In this document: piece by piece, positions 1-11,058 of the stretch
Layout: each line of letters opens with the position of its first letter
Position numbering within the stretch: the first letter of the stretch is position 1
DNA from: an uncultured Clostridia bacterium
GTDB taxonomy: Bacteria; Bacillota; Clostridia; Christensenellales; UBA1242
Assembly (NCBI GenBank): GCA_946635125.1
Contig: CAMPBB010000008.1
Location: 1-11,058 of the forward strand
Length of the DNA: 11,058 bases
Reading direction: 5' to 3'
Program-made: the position numbers and the translations under genes
The notes under the pieces: generated by a model
What the model saw: the letters and a program-made list of their open reading frames with translations, nothing else
Told to the model about the DNA's origin: nothing
The model's database searches: none

Positions 1-621
1 TTCAAGTTTTGTTAAGTTAAACATTTGCTCATCACGAAGCCTTAAAGCAAGTTCAATGTTTTTAAGGTCAGTTAAATAGTTAAAACACTCCAAAAGTGGT
101 TTTGAAACTTTTGCCAAAGAAAGCATTTCTTTTTGCATTGTTTGTTTAAAGGCGTTGTCCACAAAAAATGAACTTTGGTTTGTGTTTTGTTTTAAAAAAA
201 CAATTAAGTTTTGCATAAATGGCGTAAGTCCATCGAGTTCATCTTTTTCTAAACACTTTTCAATTCTTTGAATCTTGATTGAACCCTCAATTTTTAAGGG
301 GCTATCAAATTTTTTTAAAACAACATTAAAATACAAACTTTCAAGATTGAAATAGTCATAAGGCAAAAGAAAAAACTTTGTTAAATTTTCATTTATTTGT
401 TCATGTTTTAAAAACTCAACAAATTCTTTTTCTTTTCTTTTTGTGATTTGTTTTAAATCCGCAAAACCAGAAATGTTTTCACCTTTTATGAGTTTTAAAT
501 CCAAAAGATTTTTTATTAGTTCATCAAGTGTTGAACTTTTGATTAACTTTTCATAACCGTCCATCTTTAAAAGTTTTGCTTCTTTTGCTTTGCTCCGTGC
601 ATTAAAATATGTTATTTCCAT
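1..621 (-). CDS. ntpC: V-type ATPase subunit C (partial, 3' end off window)
   Basis: This is the amino-terminal 207 residues of the V/A-type ATPase C subunit (the yeast d-subunit homologue), the funnel-shaped cytoplasmic protein that couples the central stalk to the membrane rotor ring. The start is ATG at 621-619, preceded by AGGTGA (630-625) which overlaps the stop of the upstream E-subunit gene. The protein begins MEITYFNARSKAKEAKLL, followed by a helical, Lys/Leu-rich sequence containing DGYEKLIKSSTLDELIKNLL, the usual start of this all-helical family. The frame stays open to base 1, so the gene is cut by the window edge. Family members are about 320-350 residues, so roughly 40% is missing. 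The identification rests on operon position (after E, as in F-I-K-E-C) as much as on sequence, because the family diverges quickly. Confidence 0.85.
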   Translation of the reverse strand, partial: MEITYFNARSKAKEAKLLKMDGYEKLIKSSTLDELIKNLLDLKLIKGENISGFADLKQITKRKEKEFVEFLKHEQINENLTKFFLLPYDYFNLESLYFNVVLKKFDSPLKIEGSIKIQRIEKCLEKDELDGLTPFMQNLIVFLKQNTNQSSFFVDNAFKQTMQKEMLSLAKVSKPLLECFNYLTDLKNIELALRLRDEQMFNLTKLE

Positions 622-628
622 ATGTCAC

Positions 629-1198
629 CTAAAAAAGTTGTTTTGCAATTACATTATATAAGCAATTATATTTATCCTTTAAAAGCCCTTCAAAAGAAAA
701 GTCTTGTTCTTGCGTTTTTGAAACAATGATAACTCCACCAGAAATTTCTTTTGACACACTCAAAATTTTTAATTTTTTCTTTTTAAAAACAGCCAGTTTT
801 TCAACTCGCTCTTTTTCTCCTTTTTTGCTTGAAACAATCAGTCCATCTTGCACGCCTGCAAATTTTGTTAACACATTTTTAACAAAAGCCTCTTCTTCTT
901 TTGCTGGAAGTTTTTTTAGTTTTTGAAGAGATAAGTTAAACACCTCTAAAAGCATTTCATTTTTTGCACTTAAAATTTCTTTGTTTTGCTCCAAAGACGC
1001 CAAATCTTTTTCATTTTCCAAAAGTCTTAAAAATTCGTTTTCAACTTTTTTCTTTTCAGCCTTAAAAAACTCTTTTTCTTCTTTTTCTTTTTCCTTGCTT
1101 GCGTTTAAAGCATCTTTTTGAGCTTTTTGTTTGATGCTTTCACATTCAATTTCAGCATCTTTTAAAATTGTTTCAACAAATTTTTGTTCTTTTTCCAT
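629..1198 (-). CDS. ntpE: V-type ATPase subunit E (peripheral stalk)
   Basis: This 189-residue protein is the E subunit of the V-type ATPase peripheral stalk, which pairs with the small F/H (G-type) coiled-coil subunit to hold the catalytic A3B3 head against rotation. The first ~85 residues are a charged Lys/Glu heptad-like coiled coil. The remainder is the globular domain that docks on the catalytic head. Near the C-terminus it has the family pattern GG-hydrophobic-(8-10 residues)-F-x-x-LL (SGGVIIVSK...FEGLLKD). The length agrees with family members of about 190-200 residues. The ATG at 1198 follows the subunit K stop codon with no gap (TAA-ATG), and the run GGTGGTG just upstream is the probable ribosome site. 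Translation is therefore likely coupled to subunit K. The protein is cytoplasmic. Confidence 0.9.
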   Translation of the reverse strand: MEKEQKFVETILKDAEIECESIKQKAQKDALNASKEKEKEEKEFFKAEKKKVENEFLRLLENEKDLASLEQNKEILSAKNEMLLEVFNLSLQKLKKLPAKEEEAFVKNVLTKFAGVQDGLIVSSKKGEKERVEKLAVFKKKKLKILSVSKEISGGVIIVSKTQEQDFSFEGLLKDKYNCLYNVIAKQLF

Positions 1199-1645
1199 TT
1201 ACACCACCGCTAACAAAAGAATTGACACAACAAGCGCCAAAATTGTGTATGTTTCAATCATTGCTGGAAACAGCAAAAGTTTTCCAGACAAACTTTCATC
1301 TTTTGCAATGGCATAAATGCTTGCAACTGAACATTTTGCTTGATAAATTGCCGCAACAAATCCAACAATTGTGAGTGGCATTAAAGCAAAGAACAAACTA
1401 AGCCCTTGGTCCACTGTTGTGATGCTTGGCAAATAACTTTGCGCCAAAATTGCCATAACAAAACCATAAATTCCGTTTGTTGCTGGCAAAACAACAAACA
1501 CCAAAACTTTGCTGAATTTTTTTGGATTTTCAGCCAAAACCCCCGCACCTGCCTGACCTGTTTTGTATAGTCCAATTGCTGAACCACAACCACAAGCAAA
1601 AACGCAAAGTGCTATTCCAATTATTGCAATAACATAACCAGTCAT
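1199..1645 (-). CDS. ntpK: V-type ATPase subunit K (membrane rotor proteolipid)
   Basis: This 148-residue proteolipid has four membrane helices, made of two tandem hairpin repeats, and forms the membrane rotor ring that carries the coupling ion. The ion-carrying carboxylate is E131 in the last helix (context MIETYTIL). Aligned with the known Na+ site of E. hirae NtpK (L61, T64, Q65, Q110, E139), this protein has L53, T56, N57, Q102 and E131 with identical spacing, so only Q65 is changed, to Asn. That argues for Na+ coupling, although ion specificity is an inference. The loop GLYKTGQAGAGVLAENP is typical of the first hairpin. The ATG at 1645 overlaps the subunit I stop as ATGA, and a very strong GAGGAGG lies 8 bases upstream, consistent with the need for many copies of this subunit. 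Confidence 0.95.
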   Translation of the reverse strand: MTGYVIAIIGIALCVFACGCGSAIGLYKTGQAGAGVLAENPKKFSKVLVFVVLPATNGIYGFVMAILAQSYLPSITTVDQGLSLFFALMPLTIVGFVAAIYQAKCSVASIYAIAKDESLSGKLLLFPAMIETYTILALVVSILLLAVV

Positions 1646-3672
1646 TTTCTTTCCTCCTCAAAATCTTTTATTATTATATTTTTTTGTTCAACACAAAATG
1701 GCGAAAACAATTCTCCCTCACCATTGTAAAACTTCCCAAAATATTCAACATATTGAAGTCTTGTGTCGTGAATATATGCTCCCAAAGCACCCATTGCAAT
1801 GTTAAATGAATGTCCAACAAGCATAATCAAAAATCCAAAAATGTAACCAAGTGGTGAAGTCATCACAGAAAGAGCAATTTCGTTAAACTGTCCGCCAATA
1901 ATTGCTCCCGAAAGCATCAATCCAAAAAGCCTTGCATAACTTAAAATATCAGAAAACAAGTTGATAATTCCATAAAGGGCTGAAAAACTTTTTGTAAATT
2001 TTGTAAACCCTTTGCTTCCAATTCCTGCCAAAATAACTCCAACACCCAGTCCCACAAACATCACAATAAGCCCCGGAGTTTGAATTGCACTCAAAAAGCC
2101 ATAAAAACCATCGCTGGTTGAAAGTTTAAAGAAGTCCAGCAAAAACTTTGCTGCCGCCATCACCATTCCAACCAAGAACAAAACCCAAGCAACACCCTGA
2201 ACAAGCCCTGGCAAAATTTGTTTGTGCTTAAAGTGATTAATTCCTCTTAACAGATAACCAAATGCAATTTGAACAATTCCCATCAAAAGGCATATTAACA
2301 AAAGTGTTATTGCATCATTTTGAGGGTTTGGCATCACACCTTTTGGAATAAAACTCAAAAGTTCATGTGAAAAACCAAACACTGTTCCAAACAAAGCTCC
2401 CCAAACAATTGTGAACACTCCCGCCGTTCCAATGAGTTTCCAAAGCCTTTTTGCTCCCTGCGATAAGTTTTTCTTAGACGCAAGGCAAAAGCCTAAAACA
2501 CACAAAACAATTCCATAACCCACATCGGCAACAATAAACCCAAAGAAAATCATAAAGAACACAAACACCGACCATGTTGGGTCAACATCACGATAATTTG
2601 GCACTGAATACATGTTAACAACAAAGTCTGCTTGTTTCATAACCTTGCTTCCAACAATTTTTGTTGGAGGGCTATCTTCACTTGTTATTTTTTGCTTTTC
2701 AATTAAGAGATTTGGGAATTTGTTTTCCATGTGACTTGAAAATGCTTTTTCTTCTTTTGTTTCAACATAACAACTTAAAATAAAAGTTTTGTCTGTTCTT
2801 TTCATTAAACATTCTTTTTTTGCTTTGCTTAACTTATATTCAAGATAGTCACAGAAAATTTTTAAGTCATTTATGTTTTTTAAATATGTTTTAAGTTGAG
2901 AAAAAAGCTCTGCGTTCTTTTTTGTTAATTCAGCAATCATTGCATCAAGTTCTCGAATTTTTTCCTCATACATTTTTTGATTTGCTTCACCCAAGTATTT
3001 GAAAGAAAAATATAATTCAATTATGCCATTTGACAAATATTTAATGTCTAGTCCATTTATTTTTAATATTTCTTCTTTCATTCCTTCAAAACTTGATTTG
3101 TCGAGTTTTATCACAAGTTGCAGGTCTTCTCGTTTCAAGAAGTTGATGTCTTCAAAAACCTCTTCACCAACTTCATCTTTTGGAAGAAGTTTGCTAATTT
3201 TTTCCAAAACACTTTTGAGTTTTTCTTCACTCTTTGAAAACTTTTTTTGCTTTTTTTGTGTTTTTAACAAAAGTTTTTTAATTTCATTTGGCACCATTTG
3301 ATTTTTTTCTTTTGTGTGTTTCTTGATTAAACCATGATTTTTGTATATTTCATCAAGAATTTTGTTTATGTCATCAACAATTGCCAAATTTTTGTCAAAA
3401 TCTTCTTCACTCTTCAAAAAAGTTTTAAACGAGCACTCCACTTTGCTTTTGTCATCTTCAATTGACACCAAAGCCGACAGAGCATTTTGCGCTTTGGTTA
3501 TGTTTTTTTCAAGAGTTAAAATTTCTTCACCATTTTCAAAACTTTTTGTGCCATCAAAATTTTTGCACTCTTTGATGTGTGTTTTTTGAAGTTTTGCCAT
3601 TTCGTTTAACACTTCATCTTTTTGATTTAAAAAACCAACCAGACAAAGTTTTGACATTTTTGCTATTGCCAT
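1642..3672 (-). CDS. ntpI: V-type ATPase subunit I (membrane stator, a-subunit homologue)
   Basis: This 676-residue protein is the stator subunit containing the ion half-channels next to the K ring. Residues 1 to about 345 form the cytoplasmic arm, with long Lys/Glu-rich coiled-coil stretches. The membrane half begins near the family signature DPT (364-366) followed by FFGFIVADVGYG. About eight hydrophobic segments follow to around residue 645. The essential helix-7 arginine that releases the ion from the rotor carboxylate is R581, in LSYARLFGLMLSG. The C-terminus has the usual H-D-T-RLQYVEYFGKFYNGEG ending. The length matches the family (E. hirae NtpI is about 660). The start at 3672 is supported by GGAGG ten bases upstream, lying within the end of the preceding subunit gene, which it overlaps by ten bases. 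Confidence 0.96.
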   Translation of the reverse strand: MAIAKMSKLCLVGFLNQKDEVLNEMAKLQKTHIKECKNFDGTKSFENGEEILTLEKNITKAQNALSALVSIEDDKSKVECSFKTFLKSEEDFDKNLAIVDDINKILDEIYKNHGLIKKHTKEKNQMVPNEIKKLLLKTQKKQKKFSKSEEKLKSVLEKISKLLPKDEVGEEVFEDINFLKREDLQLVIKLDKSSFEGMKEEILKINGLDIKYLSNGIIELYFSFKYLGEANQKMYEEKIRELDAMIAELTKKNAELFSQLKTYLKNINDLKIFCDYLEYKLSKAKKECLMKRTDKTFILSCYVETKEEKAFSSHMENKFPNLLIEKQKITSEDSPPTKIVGSKVMKQADFVVNMYSVPNYRDVDPTWSVFVFFMIFFGFIVADVGYGIVLCVLGFCLASKKNLSQGAKRLWKLIGTAGVFTIVWGALFGTVFGFSHELLSFIPKGVMPNPQNDAITLLLICLLMGIVQIAFGYLLRGINHFKHKQILPGLVQGVAWVLFLVGMVMAAAKFLLDFFKLSTSDGFYGFLSAIQTPGLIVMFVGLGVGVILAGIGSKGFTKFTKSFSALYGIINLFSDILSYARLFGLMLSGAIIGGQFNEIALSVMTSPLGYIFGFLIMLVGHSFNIAMGALGAYIHDTRLQYVEYFGKFYNGEGELFSPFCVEQKNIIIKDFEEERK

Positions 3673-3989
3673 ACGCTCAAAACCTCCAAAACAATTTTGT
3701 TAGCAAGCTCTTCCATTTTGCTTGAAGCCTTTTTTTGAAGTTTGCCAATTTGAGCCTTTGCATTTTTTTGCCCTTCACTCAAAACTTTTGCTTTTTCTTG
3801 CAAAAACACCTCATTAAGCTTTTCGTTTTCTTCTTTTAATTTTTGCAAAGTTTTTTCTCTAAGGCCATCATCTTTTTGTTTGGCTTTTTTCAAAATTTCA
3901 AGAGCGTTTGTTTGAGCTTTTTCAATCAAATCATTTGCTTTTTTCTCAGCAAGCAAAATGTCTTGAAAAGTTCTTTCAATGTTCTCCAT
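3663..3989 (-). CDS. ntpF: V-type ATPase small peripheral-stalk subunit (F/H, G-like)
   Basis: This small, very charged coiled-coil protein of 108 residues is the first gene of the ntp operon and should pair with subunit E as the peripheral stalk. The sequence begins MENIERTFQDILLAEKKANDL and continues as an almost uninterrupted Lys/Glu/Ala/Leu helix, as in the V-ATPase H/G family (about 100-110 residues). The start chosen is ATG at 3989, because AGGGGG lies just upstream. A longer frame opening at TTG 4013 would add eight residues but has no ribosome site and would begin about at the predicted transcription start. The gene overlaps ntpI by ten bases. Low-complexity coiled coils give weak sequence signal, so the call depends largely on being first in an F-I-K-E-C order. 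Confidence 0.85.
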   Translation of the reverse strand: MENIERTFQDILLAEKKANDLIEKAQTNALEILKKAKQKDDGLREKTLQKLKEENEKLNEVFLQEKAKVLSEGQKNAKAQIGKLQKKASSKMEELANKIVLEVLSVWQ

Positions 3990-4019
3990 ATTCCCCCTAT
4001 TTTTTCTCCTCAAATTTAG

Positions 4020-4047: not shown

Positions 4048-4101
4048 ACAAAAACGGAAGTAAAAAAAATTTACAAAAAATTAAAATTGTTTGTTTTTTG
4101 C

Positions 4102-4130
4102 TTGACAAAATTTGCGTCAAATGTCATTAT
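4102..4130 (+). promoter_or_regulatory. Strong extended -10 promoter of the surface-protein cassette
   Basis: A perfect -35 box TTGACA (4102-4107) is followed after exactly 17 bases by CATTAT (4125-4130), which has a TG one base upstream (4122-4123), the extended -10 arrangement. The predicted transcription start is about 4137, leaving a leader of about 136 bases before the first gene at 4273. This is the best promoter match facing the cassette and fits a highly expressed first gene. Confidence 0.7.
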
Positions 4131-4136
4131 AAAAGT

Positions 4137-4272
4137 GTTAACAATCGTATACCCAATGAACAAATGCTCGTTTTTGTGAAAAAAAATTAAGTTTTTAACA
4201 CTCATTTAATTCAAAAGCAGCAATTTGGTTGGTTATATAGCGGAACAAAAACACATTTATGGAGGAAAAAAA
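4137..4272 (+). other. 5' leader of the surface-protein cassette
   Basis: This non-coding stretch lies between the predicted transcription start and the ATG at 4273. It contains a degenerate LexA-like element GAACAAATGCTC at 4158-4169, one base different from the perfect box at 10980-10991. I could not see a recognisable riboswitch or a long stable hairpin. A frame open from TTG 4225 into the first gene lies here but has no ribosome site of its own, so it is treated as untranslated. Confidence 0.5.
4261..4265 (+). promoter_or_regulatory. Shine-Dalgarno that sets the start of the first surface gene
   Basis: GGAGG at 4261-4265 stands seven bases before ATG 4273. It decides against the upstream TTG at 4225, which would place 16 polar residues in front of the lysine-rich start of the export signal. 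Confidence 0.85.
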
Positions 4273-4881
4273 ATGACATCAACAAAAAAGAAAGTTTTAA
4301 CATCAGTTATTTCATTGATTGCAATTTTGGTTGTTGCAGCCGTTGCATTCACAGCTGTTTGGGCAGCCCGTCACACAACAGTTAACTCAGGCTTTACAAT
4401 TCAATATACAGCAGTTCATGTTAAAGCCACAATTGCAGGAACATATCAAGTTAAAGGAGATGCTTCACCGACAGCTTTAAGCCCAGAATCAATCACATTT
4501 AATGGAAACGAGGCAACAGACAACTCAGCAAATGTTAAATCATTTACTTCTGTTACACCAGTTTTGAAAGAAGTTGGAGATGAAGCTTATGTTGACTTTG
4601 TTTACACAATCACAAACAACGAAACAACAAACTTAATGGACATTGTTTTGAGTTCTGACCCAGATGTTGCAGACAACAACTTGACATACACATACTCAGT
4701 TACTCTAGCAAACAACTCTGACGCAACAAGCACAGGAACAACTTATGGAAACCTTGTTACAGGACTTAAACCTGGAAAAACAGCAACAATCACAATTAGA
4801 GCAACAGTTGACAACCTTGACAACAATGTTAACGCAACAGGAACATTTGCCTTTGTTTTAACAGGTGTTGCAGCAGCATAA
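4273..4881 (+). CDS. Exported TasA/camelysin-like protein, probable major surface subunit
   Basis: This 202-residue protein has an export signal: MTSTKKK, then a hydrophobic core at residues 8-28, ending TAVWA-ARH. The likely cut is after A31. The mature part is Asn/Thr/Ser-rich and predicted mainly beta. Its second half (TNNETTN ... GLKPGKTATITI ... GTFAFVLTG) follows the pattern of the next gene, so the two are paralogues. The call as a TasA/camelysin-like fibre or matrix subunit is inferred from size, signal type and the co-encoded SipW-like peptidase. No single diagnostic motif was seen. Expression is probably high: it has the best promoter and ribosome site, and 14 of its 17 Asn codons are AAC, against 12 of 24 in the next gene. 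A strong hairpin follows the stop. It has no sortase motif and no lipobox. Confidence 0.7.
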   Translation: MTSTKKKVLTSVISLIAILVVAAVAFTAVWAARHTTVNSGFTIQYTAVHVKATIAGTYQVKGDASPTALSPESITFNGNEATDNSANVKSFTSVTPVLKEVGDEAYVDFVYTITNNETTNLMDIVLSSDPDVADNNLTYTYSVTLANNSDATSTGTTYGNLVTGLKPGKTATITIRATVDNLDNNVNATGTFAFVLTGVAAA

Positions 4882-4896
4882 TAGAACATAACACAC

Positions 4897-4926
4897 TTTA
4901 AAAACCTTGGAAACAAGGTTTTTAAA
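4897..4926 (+). terminator. Intercistronic hairpin, partial terminator or mRNA-stabilising stem
   Basis: A perfect 13-base inverted repeat, TTTAAAAACCTTG and CAAGGTTTTTAAA, encloses a GAAA tetraloop. It begins 15 bases after the stop of the first surface gene. The A-tract/CCTTG/T-tract layout is that of a small intrinsic terminator, but the T run is only five bases and no clear promoter follows before the next gene at 4945. It is best read as an attenuating or 3'-stabilising stem that makes gene 1 more abundant than genes 2-4. Confidence 0.7.
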
Positions 4927-4944
4927 CTATATAGGGAAAAATTT

Positions 4945-5574
4945 ATGGCACAAAACAAAGAAAGCCCACAAGAGGAACTTTTTTTAAACGAAATTCCTTT
5001 GGAAGAAAAAAAGAAGAAAAAAAAGAAGAGATTTTTGATTCTATTATTTTCGATAATAGGCTTTTTTGTGCTATGCGGAGTTGCTTTGGCTTTAATTCTT
5101 TCATCTCAAACGCCATTAAAGAAAAGCAACATAACAAACTTAAATGTTACCATTGACCCAATTGTTGTGACAAGCCAGGGTGAAAATCACATAAATGGTG
5201 CTCAAAAATTTTCTTTTGGAGAAAATGAAGAAAAAAATAAAGAATATTCAGCACACATTGAAGTTTTGCTTAACTATAATCAATACATTTATTATTCCTA
5301 TGGTTTTGAAAACAATGGAACAACGAATGTTAAAATAAAACTTGATGTGAGCCTTGACAAAATTGAAAATGCAAGTTTGAGTTATTCAGTTAATGATGGC
5401 GAAACAAAAGATGACATTAACCAAAACATCACAGAACTTACAATTAAACCAGAAGAAAAAATAAACATTAAAGTTTTCATGAAAATTAACAACATCAATG
5501 AAGATGCAATCATTAAGGGAACTTTCCATTTATTTTTAAGTGAGGAGGTTTTTGATGATGAACAAAACAATTGA
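4945..5574 (+). CDS. Membrane-anchored paralogue of the TasA-like subunit
   Basis: This 209-residue protein has an acidic cytoplasmic start (residues 1-21), a run of seven lysines and an arginine (22-29), one hydrophobic segment (30-52), and an extracellular beta-rich domain. That domain parallels the preceding protein: FENNGTTNVKIKLDVSL, then LTIKPEEKINIKVF, then a closing GTFHLFL. It lacks the VWAAR-type ending of the first protein's signal, so it may stay anchored as a minor or base subunit, or be cut by the co-encoded peptidase within ALILSSQTP. The ATG at 4945 has a modest AGGG eight bases upstream. Its last 20 bases overlap the signal peptidase gene and contain that gene's ribosome site. 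The exact family is not recognised, and a TapA-like anchoring role is only an analogy. Confidence 0.65.
   Translation: MAQNKESPQEELFLNEIPLEEKKKKKKKRFLILLFSIIGFFVLCGVALALILSSQTPLKKSNITNLNVTIDPIVVTSQGENHINGAQKFSFGENEEKNKEYSAHIEVLLNYNQYIYYSYGFENNGTTNVKIKLDVSLDKIENASLSYSVNDGETKDDINQNITELTIKPEEKINIKVFMKINNINEDAIIKGTFHLFLSEEVFDDEQNN
5542..5548 (+). promoter_or_regulatory. Shine-Dalgarno of the signal peptidase gene, inside the upstream gene
   Basis: GAGGAGG at 5542-5548 lies within the last codons of the preceding gene. It is six bases from ATG 5555 and nine from ATG 5558, so either Met may start. It excludes the GTG at 5540, which it overlaps, and suggests translational coupling. Confidence 0.8.
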
Positions 5575-6820
5575 TAGTGTTATTGAGCCACAAGACGATG
5601 CAATAAAAGAAATTGAAAGAGTTTCAAAAAAGCTTAAAGAAAAATATTCAAGAAAAAGTTCCATCAACGAAAAACATATGTTAAGAAAAGCCTCCCCTGT
5701 TGCAAAGTGTTTTTCAGCCATTTTCACAATTATCACAATCATTATAACTGTTTTTAGTTTCATTGTTTGCATTAGCACTTTTCTTAACTCCTCAAACAAA
5801 ACTCCAAACTGTTTGCTGGGAAGAAGCGCTCTTCAAGTTTCAAGTGGAAGCATGACAAGTGAAAAAATTGTTATTGACGGACAAGAGTTTCCAAGTGGAT
5901 TTAACATTGGAGATAAAATTGCAGTTTGCCCAGTTGACCCAAAAACACTGAAAAAAGGTGACAAAATTGCTTTCTATGCTTGGCCTAAAAACTACTTAAA
6001 ATATCACTCCGTTTCAAAACACGAAATCACGAACCTTCAAAACAAACCAACAAAAACCAAGATTGAGTTACATCACATTTTGGGTTTTCATTCAAAAGAA
6101 ATTGCTGAAGCTGGACGAAATGGCGCAATGCTAACCTTTCACCATATAACAAACATTTATGAAGACGAAAACAAAAAACTTTGGTTTAAAACGCAAGGCT
6201 CAGCAAATGCAAGCAAAGATGGTTGGTTTATTAGTGAAGAAATGATTTTGGGAATTTATGATGAATCTTCATTTGGTCAAGCCATGTTAAAAACAATTAG
6301 TTTCCTTGGAACAAGCACTGGTTTTGCTGTGTTCTTGATTGTGCCGCTTGTTTTAATTGTTGCAATTTTGTTGCATTCTGTTATTTTGGACCTTGAACTT
6401 TCTGTTCTTGAAATGGATGTTGTTGAACAAAAGAGAAAAATAACAGACACAATTTGCGTTAAATTTAAAATTGGTTACAGAATGGACACAAAAACAAAAT
6501 ACAAAGTTTTGGAACAAGCAAACGAGGACCAAATAAAAGAATATGTTGCCCTTTTGTGGCCAGACGGCGAAGAGCCTGATGCAATTAAAAAGCATGTGAC
6601 AAAAAGAAAAATTTTCTTGCTTCCAATTAAAAAATTGTTAAAACTCAACCAAATTTGCGAAGAAAGATTTAATGCAGGTGAAGACATAAAAGAAATTGCA
6701 AAATATTACCACACAGAAAAACAAAAAATTAAACAAGAAGAAAAATTCTTGGAAGAAAAACTCCAAAAAATCCATAAAATGGTGAAAAATCAAAAAAAAG
6801 GACGGGTGGCATATGTTTAA
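5555..6820 (+). CDS. sipW: SipW/ER-type signal peptidase I with C-terminal cytoplasmic extension
   Basis: This 421-residue membrane peptidase probably removes signal peptides from the neighbouring exported proteins. Residues 1-50 are charged and cytoplasmic, with a first membrane helix at about 52-76. The catalytic serine is S99, in VSSGSM. The box GDKIAVCPV and then LKKGDKIAFY follow. The probable catalytic histidine is H196, in FHHITNIYEDENKKLWF, corresponding to the HRI/HRV motif. The GDxNxxxD box that ER-type enzymes carry is here G215-S-A-N-A-S-K-D222, so the first Asp is Ser while the second is kept. Residues between about 110 and 195 are longer than in compact SipW proteins. A second helix lies at about 255-275, followed by some 145 charged cytoplasmic residues of unknown role. 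The gene overlaps both neighbours, which supports a dedicated function. An inactive enzyme cannot be excluded. Confidence 0.82.
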   Translation: MMNKTIDSVIEPQDDAIKEIERVSKKLKEKYSRKSSINEKHMLRKASPVAKCFSAIFTIITIIITVFSFIVCISTFLNSSNKTPNCLLGRSALQVSSGSMTSEKIVIDGQEFPSGFNIGDKIAVCPVDPKTLKKGDKIAFYAWPKNYLKYHSVSKHEITNLQNKPTKTKIELHHILGFHSKEIAEAGRNGAMLTFHHITNIYEDENKKLWFKTQGSANASKDGWFISEEMILGIYDESSFGQAMLKTISFLGTSTGFAVFLIVPLVLIVAILLHSVILDLELSVLEMDVVEQKRKITDTICVKFKIGYRMDTKTKYKVLEQANEDQIKEYVALLWPDGEEPDAIKKHVTKRKIFLLPIKKLLKLNQICEERFNAGEDIKEIAKYYHTEKQKIKQEEKFLEEKLQKIHKMVKNQKKGRVAYV

Positions 6821-9317
6821 AAAGTTAAGGCTAACTCTAAACATTGTTATGTTTGTAACAATCATATCCATAACATCATTCATGTATGTTTTTGCTGCTC
6901 GTGGTGTTGGAGCGTTAACTGAATACACAATTTCATTTATTTCTCCATATTGTTTTCTTGTTGATGGAAATGAACTAAACCTTGCCATGAAAAAAGAAGC
7001 AAATTCAAGCGTTAGTTCATATTCTCAGGAAGACAACACAATAAGACAAATCATTTTTGATTCATGGGATGATGAAACCTATGGCACAACATATAACTGG
7101 GACACAGATTCGCACACAAATGTTGACGCAACACAAAATGCAAACATCAGGCTTTTTTATGATGACACAAATTCAATTATGTATGTTTTAAGCAAAAGTT
7201 TGATTGCTTCTCGTGACTGTTCTCACATGTTTGAAAATTTTTCAGCACTTGAAAGTGTTGAATTTAGAAACTTTAACAGTATTGAAAGCATTTCAAATGA
7301 AAACATGTTTGCTGGCGACACAAATCTTGCTCAAATTGTTGACAGCGAAAACATTTCCACAAACCTTTCTCAATCAACAAAAAACATGTTTTTAAACTGC
7401 TCTTCCCTTTCTTCACTTGACAGCACTCACTATAAAACACCAAATGTTGAAACAATGAACTCAATGTTTAAAAACTGTTCAAGCCTTACTTCACTTAATG
7501 TAAACAGTTTTGAAGCAACAAATGTTGCAGGCTTTGAAGAAATGTTTTATGGTTGCTCATCTTTAACAACATTAAACTTGTCTTCAGTGAAAACCCCAAG
7601 TGCAACAACAATGAAGCAAATGTTTAAGGGGTGCTCGTCTTTAACAACCCTTGCTCCAACAAGTTTTGACACAACAATAGTTACAAATTTAAGTGGAATG
7701 TTTGCAGACTGCTCGCAACTTTCAAACCTTAATTTGTCATCCTTTTCAACAACAAATGCCATCGACTTTTCACAAATGTTTCAAAACTGTTCAAGCCTTG
7801 AAAACTTAAACCTTTACAACATAACAACAGACAAAGCTCAAACTTTTGAAAAAATGTTTTCTGGTGGTGGAATGGTTGAACTTGACCTTTCAAAGTTTGA
7901 CACATCAAACAGCACAAACATGGCAGAAATGTTTTACAGTATGCCAAACATTACAACAATTCGAGTTAGCAACCTTTGGGTTTCAACACAAGTTCAAAAT
8001 TCACAAAACATGTTCACAAATTCTTTAAATCTTGTTGGTGGATTTGGAACAACTTATGACCCAACAAAAACAGACAACTCTTATGCGCATGTTGACCTTC
8101 CAGACACAAAAGGATATTTAACAGCTTGCGATGTTCAATATAAGGGAGTTTATGTTTATGATGAATTTAACACTTTGTTAAACATCACTTATGTTGGAAC
8201 AGAAACACCTTATGTTTTGCCAGATGGCGATGAATTTGATTATTATAAAGACTCACAAAACAACACATATAGTCCAAACGACACTCTTCCATATAGTTTG
8301 TTTGAAGGCGTTGAAAATGTTAATTTAACAATGTTTGTTAAGCGTTATGCAGTAACCTTTTCAAATGGCTCATATGGTTCATATGTTGACAAAACTGTTC
8401 AATACACCTTTAAATCTGAAACAAAAACAATAAGTTCTGGAACAAAAATCCCAGCAAACTCAACTGTTAACATAACAGTTTCTGCTCAATCTGGTTACAA
8501 AAATGCAAGATGTTCTGCCGCAACCACACAGGGAAGTGAATCAATTTCTGTGACAACTGTTTCTGAATATTCAAAATATCAATTCACAATGCCAAACAAA
8601 GCCGTGACAATCACATTCACATCATCATCAGATGGTGGTGGCTTCTGCGTTGCATCTGGAACCAAAGTCATGCTTTCTGATGGAACAGAAAAAAATGTTG
8701 AAGATTTAACTCTTGATGACAAACTTTTGATTTACAACCACGAAACAGGAGAATTCGACACACAAGACATAAACTTTATTGAACATGATGGAATTTCAAC
8801 ATATAATGTTGTTAATCTTGTTTTCTCAAACGGAAAAACTTCAAAAATGATTTATGAACATGCTTATTTTGACATAGACCTAAATAAATATGTTTACATT
8901 CACGAAGATGACTTTTCAAACTATGTTGGTCATCACTTCTTTGCAGTAAAAGAAAACAGCACAGATGAGTTTGAAATTGTTGTTTTGGAAAACGCTTTTG
9001 TTAGCCAAGAGATAACAGATTGTTATAGTTTGGTTACAAAATATCACCTAAACTATTTTGTTGACAATATGCTTTCAATTCCAGGTGGAATTTCTGGGCT
9101 CTTTAATATGTTTGAATTTGATGAAAACTTAAAATATGATGACGCCGACAAACAATCATGCATTAATGAATATGGTTTGTTTGAATATGATGACTTTAAA
9201 GAACTTTTAACAGAAGAAGAGTTTAACTTATACCCAATCAAATACTTGAAAGTTTCACTTGCAAAAGGGCTTATCACAGAAGAATTTATGCAATATTTGA
9301 TTGAGCGTTACACATAA
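6813..9317 (+). CDS. BspA-like DUF285 repeat surface protein with C-terminal Hint domain
   Basis: This 834-residue secreted protein has five parts. Residues 1-30 form an export signal ending YVFA-ARG, which resembles the end of the first surface protein's signal. Residues 30-138 are a beta-rich lead-in. Residues 139 to about 405 hold 11 DUF285 leucine-rich repeats keyed by MF-x-x-C-S-S-L. Residues 507-603 form an InlB-B-like domain ending YQFTMPNKAVTITF. After a DGGGF linker, C612 begins a Hint domain (CVASGTKVMLSDGTEKNVED) that runs to about residue 759, with H683 at block B and HLNYFVDNML at the closing block. The usual terminal His-Asn is absent, so protein splicing is not expected. A 75-residue acidic tail follows. 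The ATG at 6813 overlaps the peptidase stop by eight bases, and the end is a double stop, TAATAA. It is probably an adhesin or matrix protein processed by its Hint domain. Confidence 0.9.
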   Translation: MFKKLRLTLNIVMFVTIISITSFMYVFAARGVGALTEYTISFISPYCFLVDGNELNLAMKKEANSSVSSYSQEDNTIRQIIFDSWDDETYGTTYNWDTDSHTNVDATQNANIRLFYDDTNSIMYVLSKSLIASRDCSHMFENFSALESVEFRNFNSIESISNENMFAGDTNLAQIVDSENISTNLSQSTKNMFLNCSSLSSLDSTHYKTPNVETMNSMFKNCSSLTSLNVNSFEATNVAGFEEMFYGCSSLTTLNLSSVKTPSATTMKQMFKGCSSLTTLAPTSFDTTIVTNLSGMFADCSQLSNLNLSSFSTTNAIDFSQMFQNCSSLENLNLYNITTDKAQTFEKMFSGGGMVELDLSKFDTSNSTNMAEMFYSMPNITTIRVSNLWVSTQVQNSQNMFTNSLNLVGGFGTTYDPTKTDNSYAHVDLPDTKGYLTACDVQYKGVYVYDEFNTLLNITYVGTETPYVLPDGDEFDYYKDSQNNTYSPNDTLPYSLFEGVENVNLTMFVKRYAVTFSNGSYGSYVDKTVQYTFKSETKTISSGTKIPANSTVNITVSAQSGYKNARCSAATTQGSESISVTTVSEYSKYQFTMPNKAVTITFTSSSDGGGFCVASGTKVMLSDGTEKNVEDLTLDDKLLIYNHETGEFDTQDINFIEHDGISTYNVVNLVFSNGKTSKMIYEHAYFDIDLNKYVYIHEDDFSNYVGHHFFAVKENSTDEFEIVVLENAFVSQEITDCYSLVTKYHLNYFVDNMLSIPGGISGLFNMFEFDENLKYDDADKQSCINEYGLFEYDDFKELLTEEEFNLYPIKYLKVSLAKGLITEEFMQYLIERYT
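7220..8030 (+). repeat. Eleven DUF285 leucine-rich repeats
   Basis: Protein-level repeats of about 23-26 residues are marked by 11 Met-Phe pairs between residues 139 and 401. In six consecutive copies (3-8) the pair is followed two residues later by Cys (LNC, KNC, YGC, KGC, ADC, QNC), which would stack as a cysteine ladder along the solenoid. The outer copies (1-2 and 9-11) have lost the Cys. The DNA copies are diverged rather than identical, so the array is old and unlikely to be recombining actively. Confidence 0.9.
8331..8621 (+). other. InlB-B-like beta domain within the surface protein
   Basis: Residues 507-603 follow the pattern of the divergent InlB B-repeat. They include an initial RYAVTFSNGSYGS strand, a central NSTVNITVSAQSGYK, and the closing FTMPNKAVTITF, where a Met-Pro precedes a final Val-Thr-rich strand. 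Such domains usually act as wall-facing or spacer stalks. Here it lies between the repeat solenoid and the Hint domain. Confidence 0.7.
8646..9089 (+). other. Hint (hedgehog/intein) domain lacking C-terminal splice residues
   Basis: Residues 612-759 carry block A with the nucleophile C612 directly after GGGF, followed by GTKVMLSDGTEKNVEDL and a hydrophobic-Asp-Asp-Lys step. Block B has H683, in MIYEHAYF, with Ile where inteins usually have Thr (T-x-x-H). The last block, DCYSLVTKYHLNYFVDNML, matches the intein ending H-NYF-V-x-G-I-L-V-HN. However, the final HN is replaced by SIPGG, and no Cys/Ser/Thr junction follows. By comparison with hedgehog proteins and bacterial intein-like domains, N-terminal cleavage through a thioester at C612 is possible, whereas full splicing is not. 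Confidence 0.82.
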
Positions 9318-9319
9318 TA

Positions 9320-9350
9320 AAAAATCTGCCATTTAAATTGGCAGATTTTT
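9320..9350. terminator. Bidirectional intrinsic terminator between convergent operons
   Basis: AAAAATCTGCCA (9320-9331) and TGGCAGATTTTT (9339-9350) form a perfect 12-base stem with a seven-base loop. Each strand ends in a T run, so it can stop both the surface cassette on the plus strand and the polymerase/YolD operon on the minus strand. The stop codon of the YolD-like gene (9335-9333) lies in the loop, and its last codons form one arm of the stem. Confidence 0.9.
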
Positions 9351-9683
9351 GTTTCTAAGTTTTATTGTTAAAATATCTTCAAAATTTATGTGAGTGGTTT
9401 TTTCATCTTCCGAAACAACATCCATTTGTTTTGTGCTATTGCAAATTTTTAACTCTCCACAAACAGTTTTATAGTGTAAATCTTTTTTATCATAAAACAA
9501 AACTTCAACACAATCTTTGTTTTTTAACTTTAAAAAAGTTTTTTCAAGATTTTCAATTTCTTCTTCTGTTAATTCCTTTTTTAATGTTTTTTCTTGTTCA
9601 TACTCTCTTTCTCTCAAACTTTCTTGAAGACCTTTCAATGCATTGAAAGGCGCAAACTGTGCTGCCCTATTTTTTCTTGGCAT
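9333..9683 (-). CDS. YolD-like protein, partner of Y-family polymerase
   Basis: This small cytoplasmic protein of 116 residues begins MPRKNRAAQFAPFNALKGLQ, the characteristic opening of clostridial YolD-like proteins (R-x-x-R-A-x-QF-x-PF-x-AL-x-G). It continues with a Glu/Lys-rich helix (residues ~20-55) and a beta-rich C-terminal half. YolD-family genes are typically found beside UvrX/YqjW-type polymerases, and their biochemical role is poorly defined. The start is ATG 9683, one base after the polymerase stop at 9685, with GGAGA eight bases upstream. A frame open from further upstream (9785) would overlap the polymerase by 101 bases and has no YolD-like sequence in the extra 34 residues, so it was rejected. 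The gene is co-transcribed with, and presumably SOS-induced together with, the polymerase, and ends inside the terminator loop. Confidence 0.88.
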   Translation of the reverse strand: MPRKNRAAQFAPFNALKGLQESLREREYEQEKTLKKELTEEEIENLEKTFLKLKNKDCVEVLFYDKKDLHYKTVCGELKICNSTKQMDVVSEDEKTTHINFEDILTIKLRNKNLPI

Positions 9684-9684
9684 T

Positions 9685-10950
9685 TTAATTCTCTCCACTT
9701 TTGTGACCTCCAATTTGTTTGTTTCTCTCTCTTTGGGTTGCTTTTTCCTCAAAGTCAATTCCACGCAAAATTGCATTTTTCCCAAATTTATTTTTTAAAG
9801 CAACAATTGTTTTTAAAAGATTTTTTTCTTTGTCTTCTTTTTGATAATCAGTAAAAAAATTTGCTTGAACATTATGGCAATCCAAAATTTCAGAAAAATC
9901 ATAGCCAAGCCTTCGAATGTTTTTGTCTTCACAAATTTCATCAAAGAGCTTAATCCCTTCCTTTTCAATAACTGATGGCAAATTGGTTGGCACATCAAAC
10001 CTTTTCATTTTTTTTATTGGCGGAAGCGTTTTGTCTTCAAAAGAAACAAAAATGTGAAGAATTTTTGCAATTTTGTTTTGTGACACAAGACGATAGCAAC
10101 CTTCCATCAGCATTTCATTCAAAACAATTTTTGCTTCACTTTTTGTGTATGCACATGGCAAAATTTGAGAACTTGAAAAAGAATTGCTCTTTGCCTTGTA
10201 ACTTTTTATGTCTTCCATCAAACAAGTTTCCACTCCTTTTGAGTGGTCAATCAAAAGTTCTGCGTTAATTCCAAATTCATCAAAAAGCACATCTTCGTCG
10301 AAATGTGCAATAGACCACATATCTTCAATTCCATGTTTTTTAAGCCTTTCACTAATTCCAGTTGAAATTCCCCAAAAGTCAGTTAATGGCTTGTGGTGCC
10401 AAAGTTCTTTCTTAAATTTTTGTTCGCTAAGAAAACCAATTGCGTCTTTTGAGTGTTTTGCGGTGATATCTAGTGCAATTTTTGCAAGATATAAATTTGT
10501 TCCAATTCCACAAGAAGATGGAATTTTTAGTTTTTCCCAAATTTCATTCATAAGTTTTTTTGCAAAATCTCTTGCAGTGATGTTATATAACTTTAAATAT
10601 GATGTAACATCAATAAAACACTCATCAATTGAATAAACATGAATGTCTTTTGGGTCAAAATAGTTTAAATAAATTTTGTAAATTAAAGAAGCATATTCAA
10701 TATATTTTTTCATTTGTGGTGGTGCAATGATATATTCAATGTTTTGTGGAATTTCAAATAGCCTGCACCTATTTTTAACCCCCAGTGCTTTCATTGCTGG
10801 GCTAACTGCCAAACAAATTGTTTTCAAAGACCTTGTGCTGTCGGCAACAACAAGTTTTGTGCTTTTGGCATCAAGCCCCCTTAAAGCACACTCAACCGAT
10901 GCAAAAAATGACTTCATATCAATAACAAAATAACATCTTATTCCTTCCAC
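9685..10950 (-). CDS. Y-family translesion DNA polymerase (UvrX/YqjW type)
   Basis: This error-prone polymerase is expected to copy past DNA lesions during the SOS response. Numbered from GTG 10950 (421 residues), the metal-binding aspartate is D11, in YFVIDMKSFFASVE, and the second motif is SIDE with D109-E110. The sugar steric gate is probably F16, five residues after the first Asp. A helix-hairpin-helix-like segment follows in the thumb (FWGISTGISERLKKHGI). The protein ends ERNKQIGGHKSGEN, typical of the UvrX/YqjW branch of UmuC-like enzymes. A degenerate clamp-binding motif QANFF lies at about 362-366. The start is uncertain: GTG 10950 is nine bases from AAGGTGG, while TTG 10956 is only three bases away. 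Either keeps all motifs. The next gene, YolD-like, follows one base after the stop. The LexA-controlled promoter upstream fits an SOS role. Confidence 0.92.
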   Translation of the reverse strand: MEGIRCYFVIDMKSFFASVECALRGLDAKSTKLVVADSTRSLKTICLAVSPAMKALGVKNRCRLFEIPQNIEYIIAPPQMKKYIEYASLIYKIYLNYFDPKDIHVYSIDECFIDVTSYLKLYNITARDFAKKLMNEIWEKLKIPSSCGIGTNLYLAKIALDITAKHSKDAIGFLSEQKFKKELWHHKPLTDFWGISTGISERLKKHGIEDMWSIAHFDEDVLFDEFGINAELLIDHSKGVETCLMEDIKSYKAKSNSFSSSQILPCAYTKSEAKIVLNEMLMEGCYRLVSQNKIAKILHIFVSFEDKTLPPIKKMKRFDVPTNLPSVIEKEGIKLFDEICEDKNIRRLGYDFSEILDCHNVQANFFTDYQKEDKEKNLLKTIVALKNKFGKNAILRGIDFEEKATQRERNKQIGGHKSGEN

Positions 10951-10959
10951 CGTCAACCA

Positions 10960-10966
10960 CCACCTT
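10960..10966 (-). promoter_or_regulatory. Shine-Dalgarno deciding the polymerase start
   Basis: AAGGTGG (10966-10960, minus strand) is three bases from TTG 10956 and nine bases from GTG 10950, favouring GTG. It lies almost at the predicted 5' end of the transcript, so the leader is only about 11-17 bases long. Confidence 0.65.
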
Positions 10967-10973
10967 ATATAAA

Positions 10974-11002
10974 ATTATAGAACAAATGTTCGCATTTTGC
11001 AA
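10974..11002 (-). promoter_or_regulatory. SOS promoter of the polymerase/YolD operon
   Basis: On the minus strand, TTGCAA (11002-10997) is followed after exactly 17 bases by a perfect TATAAT (10979-10974). Transcription should start near 10967. The LexA box fills the promoter-proximal 12 bases of the spacer, so bound LexA would block RNA polymerase directly. Confidence 0.85.
10980..10991. promoter_or_regulatory. LexA (SOS) box
   Basis: GAACAAATGTTC (minus strand GAACATTTGTTC) has both perfect GAAC/GTTC half-sites with the four-base gap of the Gram-positive LexA operator, preceded on the minus strand by a C as in the CGAAC-N4-GTTC consensus. It abuts the -10 box, in front of a gene family known to be SOS-induced. 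No lexA gene is visible in the window. Confidence 0.92.
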
Positions 11003-11058
11003 GTGCTTTTTGAAAAATTTAAGAAAAATTTTTGCAAATTAAAAATCCGCCACAAATA
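11003..11058. other. Non-coding right edge
   Basis: This AT-rich stretch upstream of the SOS promoter has no open frame I can support. Near its end, AAAAATCCGCC resembles the left arm of an intrinsic terminator (compare the arm at 9320-9331), but the matching arm would lie outside the window. Confidence 0.3.

Follow-up and report, generated by a model that had tools for sequence, protein, structure and literature searches.

The window analysed here, 11,058 nucleotides long, is the entire contig CAMPBB010000008.1 (C8) of an uncultured Clostridia bacterium whose genome assembly (GCA_946635125.1) is incomplete (772,831 bases, 153 contigs, 67% complete). On its plus strand lies a set of four genes (Table 1) that encode two paralogous candidate fibre subunits (genes 1 and 2), a signal peptidase related to SipW (gene 3) and a large adhesin with DUF285 repeats, a Hint domain and a conserved tail (gene 4). 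We propose that genes 1–3 form a SipW-type fibre module and that gene 4 provides an end subunit, which donates a strand to the fibre and bears a self-cutting Hint domain, a reading to which we assign a probability of roughly 0.45. What the data show directly is the gene order and its recurrence, the homology of genes 1 and 2, the conserved catalytic residues, the Hint fold, and the in-register N termini of the adhesins. The original prediction, made from the sequence of this DNA, had described a self-contained cassette of two TasA-like subunits, a dedicated SipW-type peptidase and a Hint-terminated DUF285 adhesin. Its observation is largely sound, and the four genes and their overlaps (20 bases between genes 2 and 3, 8 bases between genes 3 and 4) are borne out by the coordinates.

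Table 1 Features of the four-gene set in the window (aa, amino acids; AF2, AlphaFold2)
Feature	Position	Strand	Remarks
Promoter-like site	4102..4130	+	TTGACA-17-CATTAT, extended TG; consensus scan 10/12; position only
Gene 1	4273..4881	+	ATG start, 202 aa; GGAGG at 4261-4265
Terminator-like hairpin between genes 1 and 2	4897..4926	+	CCTTG-GAAA-CAAGG, then TTTTT
Gene 2	4945..5574	+	paralogous subunit, 209 aa
Gene 3	5555..6820	+	ATG start, 421 aa; SipW/archaeal-type signal peptidase
Gene 3, Ser99 codon	5849-5851	+
Gene 3, His196 codon	6140-6142	+
Gene 4	6813..9317	+	834 aa; adhesin with DUF285 repeats, Hint domain and tail at the C-terminal end
Gene 4, segment behind the signal peptide	6897..6947	+	residues 29-45; aligns in register with the N-terminal segment of the subunits; disorder predicted
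Gene 4, DUF285/BspA-type repeats	7188..8117	+	about residues 126-435
Gene 4, beta-rich stalk	8130..8627	+	about residues 440-605; probably two domains (AF2 model)
Gene 4, Hint domain	8646..9089	+	residues 612-759; Cys612 (codon 8646-8648), Glu657, His683
Gene 4, conserved C-terminal tail	9090..9314	+	residues 760-834; predicted helical
End hairpin	9320..9350		12 pairs and T-run; common to the operon and the converging YolD-like gene

The gene products and the recurrence of the operon

Gene 1, for which the ATG start is more likely than a longer alternative beginning with TTG at 4225, encodes the candidate major fibre subunit, in which a signal peptide is followed by AARHTTVNSGFTIQYTAV at residues 31-48. 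Its AF2 model is a predicted beta-sandwich (predicted local distance difference test score, pLDDT, 83.6). The gene 1 family, with 25 proteins found including the window's own, is homologous to the gene 2 family (HHalign 98.7%, E=1.9e-16; control of gene 2 against the peptidase, 1.2%), and gene 2 has a Lys-rich N terminus followed by a single hydrophobic span, as judged by eye. The label TasA-like, which had been given to both proteins, is not borne out by family matches. Neither protein has a TasA/camelysin match in Pfam or NCBIfam, libraries that presumably contain such models, TasA was likewise unmatched in the search of PDB sequences, and no TasA/camelysin model matches any of 21 gene 1 relatives at E<=1 (21 scanned of the 25, own included). 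TasA was also not among the matches listed in the fold comparison, which excludes nothing.

Gene 3 is akin to SipW and archaeal-type signal peptidases, with matches to TIGR02228 (E=5e-9; 36.3 bits against a cut-off of 51.85) and to the SipW model NF046067 (E=2e-6; 27.5 bits against 190). Ser99 and His196 are kept in 65 of 65 homologues, and we take them to be the catalytic pair (Ser and His, no Lys), as in SipW. The predicted kinship with SipW is thus upheld by both models and by the Ser/His pair, but both scores lie under the curated family cut-offs, and on its sequence we class gene 3 as SipW-related rather than as a SipW equivalog. The protein bears a long C-terminal extension, and a search against PDB sequences gave two matches only, both with E=1.7. 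Elsewhere, peptidases of the gene 3 clade lie in open frames of 551-728 aa with Lys-rich ends (L160, L154, L156, L159).

The DUF285 repeats of gene 4 are evident in Pfam (E=3e-29; PF03382 with 101.6 bits against a cut-off of 25), and TIGR02167 is also over its cut-off. The modelled domain that follows the stalk has the Hint fold; it passes no Hint cut-off in Pfam or NCBIfam. A DUF285 adhesin with a Hint domain, as originally described, is therefore what we find, except that the Hint domain is not quite terminal and is followed by a conserved tail of about 75 residues.

We surveyed 309 genomes from the bacterial family and found the peptidase (threshold E<=1e-20) at 46 places in 43 of them. A gene of the gene 1/2 family lies upstream of it at 38 of the 46, which supports the view that peptidase and subunit genes belong together; the remaining eight comprise five of a divergent tandem type, two at contig edges, and one (G175) without any such gene. 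Because the gene 1 and gene 2 profiles cross-match, a place scored as having both upstream does not prove two genes. Downstream of the peptidase we found a DUF285 gene at eight places, a subunit gene at one (G002) and a contig end at four; the remaining 33 were scored as having none, in the sense that none of these classes begins in the first 500 bases. Three of the eight DUF285 places have a Hint domain (the window, G323, and G047), four lack it, and at one the gene runs off the contig. All four genes are found again in this order in RGIG6879 (L064, the same as G323) and in RGIG3516 (G047), where the adhesin is split across two contigs with a 25-base overlap. Judging from coinciding sizes, three further metagenome contigs (13,403, 4,685, and 11,386 bases) seem to hold a DUF285-Hint gene and the peptidase.

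The original prediction had named peptidase and subunit genes without the Hint adhesin as the case that would count against it, and G002 (L174), from the same genus, is such a case: the order there is subunit, subunit, peptidase, subunit, with no adhesin, next to the same downstream neighbours (74% DNA identity over 1,459 columns between L174:4545-5988 and window 9554-11003, on the YolD/DinB side; the upstream side differs). The downstream counts and G002 rule out an obligate four-gene cassette. Since G002 has subunits and peptidase without an adhesin, and the adhesin occurs at few places, the operon is better seen as a core with an optional fourth gene. Conserved co-occurrence, proposed as a check, holds for peptidase and subunits and in part for the DUF285 adhesin, but the Hint domain is known from only three of the eight. 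The claim of a self-contained cassette is too strong; among known systems, the set belongs with the SipW-type fibre operons. On the sequence evidence, the DUF285 adhesin is a recurrent partner of the peptidase and the Hint domain is an add-on. Two elements are new: the end-subunit candidate with DUF285, which is optional, and the family defined by Hint plus tail.

Across genomes, no clear link of Hint with the peptidase emerges except for the complete unit. Any Hint match (32 genomes) and the peptidase (43) occur together in 7 of 309 genomes against 4.5 expected (p=0.14), and a general link between the two was not found. The whole Hint-plus-tail model, which is matched to its end in 9 of the 32 (the rest mostly cover only Hint or some of the tail), occurs with the peptidase in four genomes against 1.25 expected (p=0.024), three of the four being the cassette itself. 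Separately, L190-L194 contain a divergent tandem pair of gene 3-clade peptidases with no subunit gene nearby, and in L190, L192, L193, and L194 a peptidyl-tRNA hydrolase-like gene, recognized by eye, lies close to them.

The original prediction placed all four genes between one promoter and one terminator. A promoter-like site and an end hairpin are present, but so is an additional terminator-like hairpin between genes 1 and 2, which means that the four genes may not form one uniformly transcribed unit. The promoter assignment rests on position and not on statistics, because the scan gave 39 such sites against 32.8 expected (standard deviation 6.5), which is not above background. Hairpins with T-runs in the gap between genes 1 and 2 were also seen, by eye, in G047 (both cassettes), G323, G024, G200, and G319 (7 of 15 folded stretches, including the window). 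The excerpted report on Clostridium perfringens describes a predicted terminator 3' of the polymerising subunit gene, with short and read-through transcripts (PMC7395162). The simplest reading is that the gene 1 product is more abundant than those of genes 2–4.

Both flanks of the set lie on the minus strand and hold V-type ATPase operon genes (an operon named partly by eye) and a YolD/DinB pair. The V-type ATPase genes, including the large I subunit, occupy window 1-4013, and a DinB-like polymerase and a YolD-like gene adjoin the operon in the window as in G002. The protein cluster of gene 1 lists an 11,411-base contig, and a slightly longer version of the window contig may thus exist elsewhere.

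The N terminus of the adhesin and a model of the fibre

As described in the excerpts of the published structures, TasA fibres grow by insertion of an N-terminal strand into the next subunit, and TapA, which has nearly the same starting residues as TasA and a closed fold, can be placed only at the beginning of the filament (PMC9674648, PMC10151520). Gene 4 resembles gene 1 in the corresponding region with equal spacing (AARGVGALTEYTISFIS in gene 4 versus AARHTTVNSGFTIQYTA in gene 1), and its residues 22-71 have pLDDT under 50. Adhesins that lack the Hint domain also resemble the subunit N terminus, as in G168 (INANFGNQTEIYYTAA versus RSANFGGDFGGGYTAH). As a group, 13 adhesins score above 49 control Hint proteins (proteins of P0008-P0077 outside the adhesin set, with a Met start and a strong hydrophobic stretch), and the adhesin-subunit pair scores are reached by fixed-register shuffles in at most 1.8%; candidate subunits were chosen by pattern and then by eye.

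In our model, genes 1–3 would constitute a sortase-independent, SipW-type fibre module in which gene 3 removes the signal peptides from the gene 1 and gene 4 products, and perhaps also from that of gene 2, gene 1 polymerises through N-terminal strand donation as in TasA, and gene 2 is a minor paralogue, possibly a membrane-held base. Gene 4 would be the end subunit: the segment after its signal peptide would mimic that of gene 1 and donate a strand to one gene 1 subunit, and, because no subunit fold was seen in gene 4, the protein would be confined to one fibre end. This is the position proposed for TapA, and the DUF285 repeat solenoid would be displayed there. Finally, the Hint domain may form a thioester at Cys612 and then, in Hedgehog-like chemistry that involves no splicing, cut the adhesin off from the part made up of Hint and tail. 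The steps that we infer are the cutting by gene 3, the polymerisation, the donation of strands, the adhesion, and the activity of the Hint domain with its outcome.

Three points limit this assignment of gene 4: the N-terminal register similarity covers three lineages only, the window's own adhesin, taken alone, is not distinct from the controls, and matching between adhesin and subunit of the same genome (cognate matching) is inconsistent. Cognate covariation of the two segments was tested by rank (30 of 32 subunit segments, two G275 segments being left out for register) with a mixed outcome and is not claimed. The last two points, the 33 of 46 places at which neither an adhesin nor a subunit gene follows the peptidase, and an AAR shared at the likely signal-peptide cleavage site would all fit an ordinary matrix-fibre operon in which gene 4 is merely co-transcribed, its product being exported to act alone and its N-terminal likeness reflecting shared recognition by the peptidase. 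Such recognition does not readily account for a match that runs on, in fixed register and in three lineages, for about 16 residues beyond the likely cleavage site, nor for the group score above the 49 controls, and we consider this alternative unlikely, if worth serious attention.

The Hint-plus-tail family

A search with the Hint-plus-tail region of gene 4 gave 77 proteins, 73 of which were aligned (P0071, P0073, and P0074 were missed by the motif and P0077 is truncated). Cys612 and His683 are invariant in all 73 and are also present in the three missed proteins, by eye, and in the truncated one. Relative to the Cys, an acid is found at +45 in 70 of 73 and His at +71 in 73 of 73, whereas Thr stands at +68 in only one and Ile or Val in 69; the Hog signature of Cys, Asp (+45), and Thr-x-x-His (+68/+71) is therefore not that of this family. 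Where intein splicing calls for a C-terminal Asn, Gln, or Asp and a +1 nucleophile, the family has S-[MI]-P-G-G, with H/S-N-C/S/T in 0 of 73, which speaks against an intein. PF01079 (Hint module) is listed for three of the 77 (P0020, P0071, and P0074), and for ten other Hint proteins no NCBIfam Hint or intein model passes its cut-off and no signal-class models are among the matches listed. According to precomputed Pfam accessions, some of the 77 combine Hint-plus-tail with DUF285, PF09479 repeats, PF00082 (subtilase), or PF13365 (trypsin-like).

In the best 80 of 102 Hint loci, taken from genomes of named species together with flanks of at most 10 kb, 75 proteins stop no more than 30 residues from the end of the Hint-plus-tail model. 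The other five (L069, L119, L120, L123, and L128) have 46-52 residues beyond the tail, Gly/Asn-rich in L120 and L123. Four very large Hint-tail proteins of 1487-2325 aa (L066, L075, L077, and L078) have type IV prepilin-like starts, and that of L066 is encoded at the end of a type IV pilus-like cluster (L066:900-10678), whose other genes, judged from their sequences, are presumably prepilin-peptidase-, PilC-, and PilB-like genes and prepilins. The presence of Hint-tail on a SipW-fibre adhesin and on prepilin-like proteins indicates that this C-terminal unit serves candidates for two different pilus systems. It is also carried by a named strain, Pumilibacter intestinalis CLA-AA-M10 (L110). Peptidase profile matches occur at three of the 80 loci, adjacent in L064 and weak in L139 and L080; the peptidase of L065 is on a separate contig. 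The distant SipW-type peptidases of L139:10750-11616 and L080:12976-13911 lie one and three genes downstream of the Hint-tail proteins, and in L080 the two intervening genes show SipW-like signal regions by eye.

Two facts would fit a reading of the Hint-tail as a polymorphic-toxin module (PT-HINT) from which a C-terminal effector is set free: Hint domains of this kind process polymorphic toxins, and PF07591 is matched by two of 16 members with E<=0.1 (2.4e-5 for the best). What follows the Hint domain in the 73 aligned proteins is, however, one conserved tail and not a variable toxin, in 75 of 80 loci the protein stops within 30 aa of it, and the next gene in the window is the converging YolD-like gene; already disfavoured, this explanation is very improbable.

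Only 8 of the 309 genomes in the family have a sortase over its cut-off, and the nine listed with any sortase match include neither the window's genome nor G047 or G323. Most of the family must therefore hold surface proteins in some other way, whatever the Hint domain does. The scarcity of sortases, the C-terminal position of the Hint-tail behind varied other domains, and the discussion of TapA, in excerpts of the literature, as an anchor or starter close to the cell suggest a different placement within the same fibre, whereby gene 4 is a cell-proximal starter that donates the first strand and the Hint-tail, in place of a sortase anchor, links its C terminus through a covalent bond to a lipid, glycan, or peptide of the envelope. 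Yet Hint-less adhesins occupy the equal position at four of eight places, no ligand is known, and the sortase-poor background is family-wide, with or without Hint; we regard this placement as rather unlikely. More speculatively still, Hint-plus-tail might be a bacterial counterpart of Hog, a self-processing C-terminal unit that stands in for sortase in gut Firmicutes where this enzyme is scarce. It would cut large adhesins and attach the C terminus so formed to a molecule of the envelope that the tail selects, and it would have been added to the fibre-end adhesins of two or more unrelated kinds of pilus (SipW-type fibre and type IV pili), an idea that we think improbable as a whole.

Comparison with known systems

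Our reading, with gene 4 at the fibre end, suggests that TasA/TapA-type strand-donation fibres of uncultured gut Clostridia can bear a dedicated end adhesin. The Hint-plus-tail family, present on many surface proteins, is not represented by a dedicated model in the searched copies of Pfam and NCBIfam and, if its Hint step is active, raises the question of how large adhesins are processed or attached where sortase is lacking. Neither a DUF285-Hint adhesin nor a SipW-fibre end adhesin is described in the titles and abstract openings of the open-licence PMC articles that our literature searches listed. The systems below are compared as the excerpts of the cited papers present them.

The closest parallel is tapA-sipW-tasA of B. 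subtilis, which likewise combines in one operon a SipW-type peptidase and its own secreted substrates, including a subunit with an N-terminal strand segment and a second protein with a subunit-like N terminus (PMC9674648, PMC10151520). Unlike there, the window has no TasA family match, two subunit paralogues, and a long C-terminal extension of the peptidase, and a DUF285 adhesin of 834 aa that bears Hint is its candidate for the end subunit, instead of TapA with its immunoglobulin (Ig) domain. The sipW-bsaABCRSD system of C. perfringens also joins sipW to several exported proteins, with a predicted terminator after the polymerising subunit gene, and is unaffected in a sortase mutant (PMC7395162). 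Its gene order differs, the window set is without two-component genes, and no DUF285-Hint protein is named for C. perfringens in that excerpt. The TasA-CalY-CapP filaments of B. cereus are similar in being SipW-processed, sortase-independent, and controlled in assembly by a third protein; that protein, CapP, differs from gene 4 in being a chaperone-like cell-wall protein, for which the excerpt describes no DUF285 or Hint (PMC13082335).

The Hog domain of Hedgehog consists of Hint and a sterol or adduct recognition region (PMC2362128, PMC7906309), and we follow the residue numbering of PMC7906309. In our family the +68 Thr is replaced by Ile or Val, the host proteins are bacterial surface proteins, and the place of the adduct recognition region is taken by the conserved, predicted helical tail, which may or may not bind a ligand. 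Bacterial intein-like (BIL) domains (PMC7664689) are distinguished by a C-terminal end of the His-Asn type, found in 0 of 73 here, whereas the conserved tail is present in our family. Finally, gene 4 shares its repeats with the BspA/PARCEL (DUF285) surface proteins and differs from them in combining these repeats with a subunit-like N terminus and a C-terminal Hint-tail.

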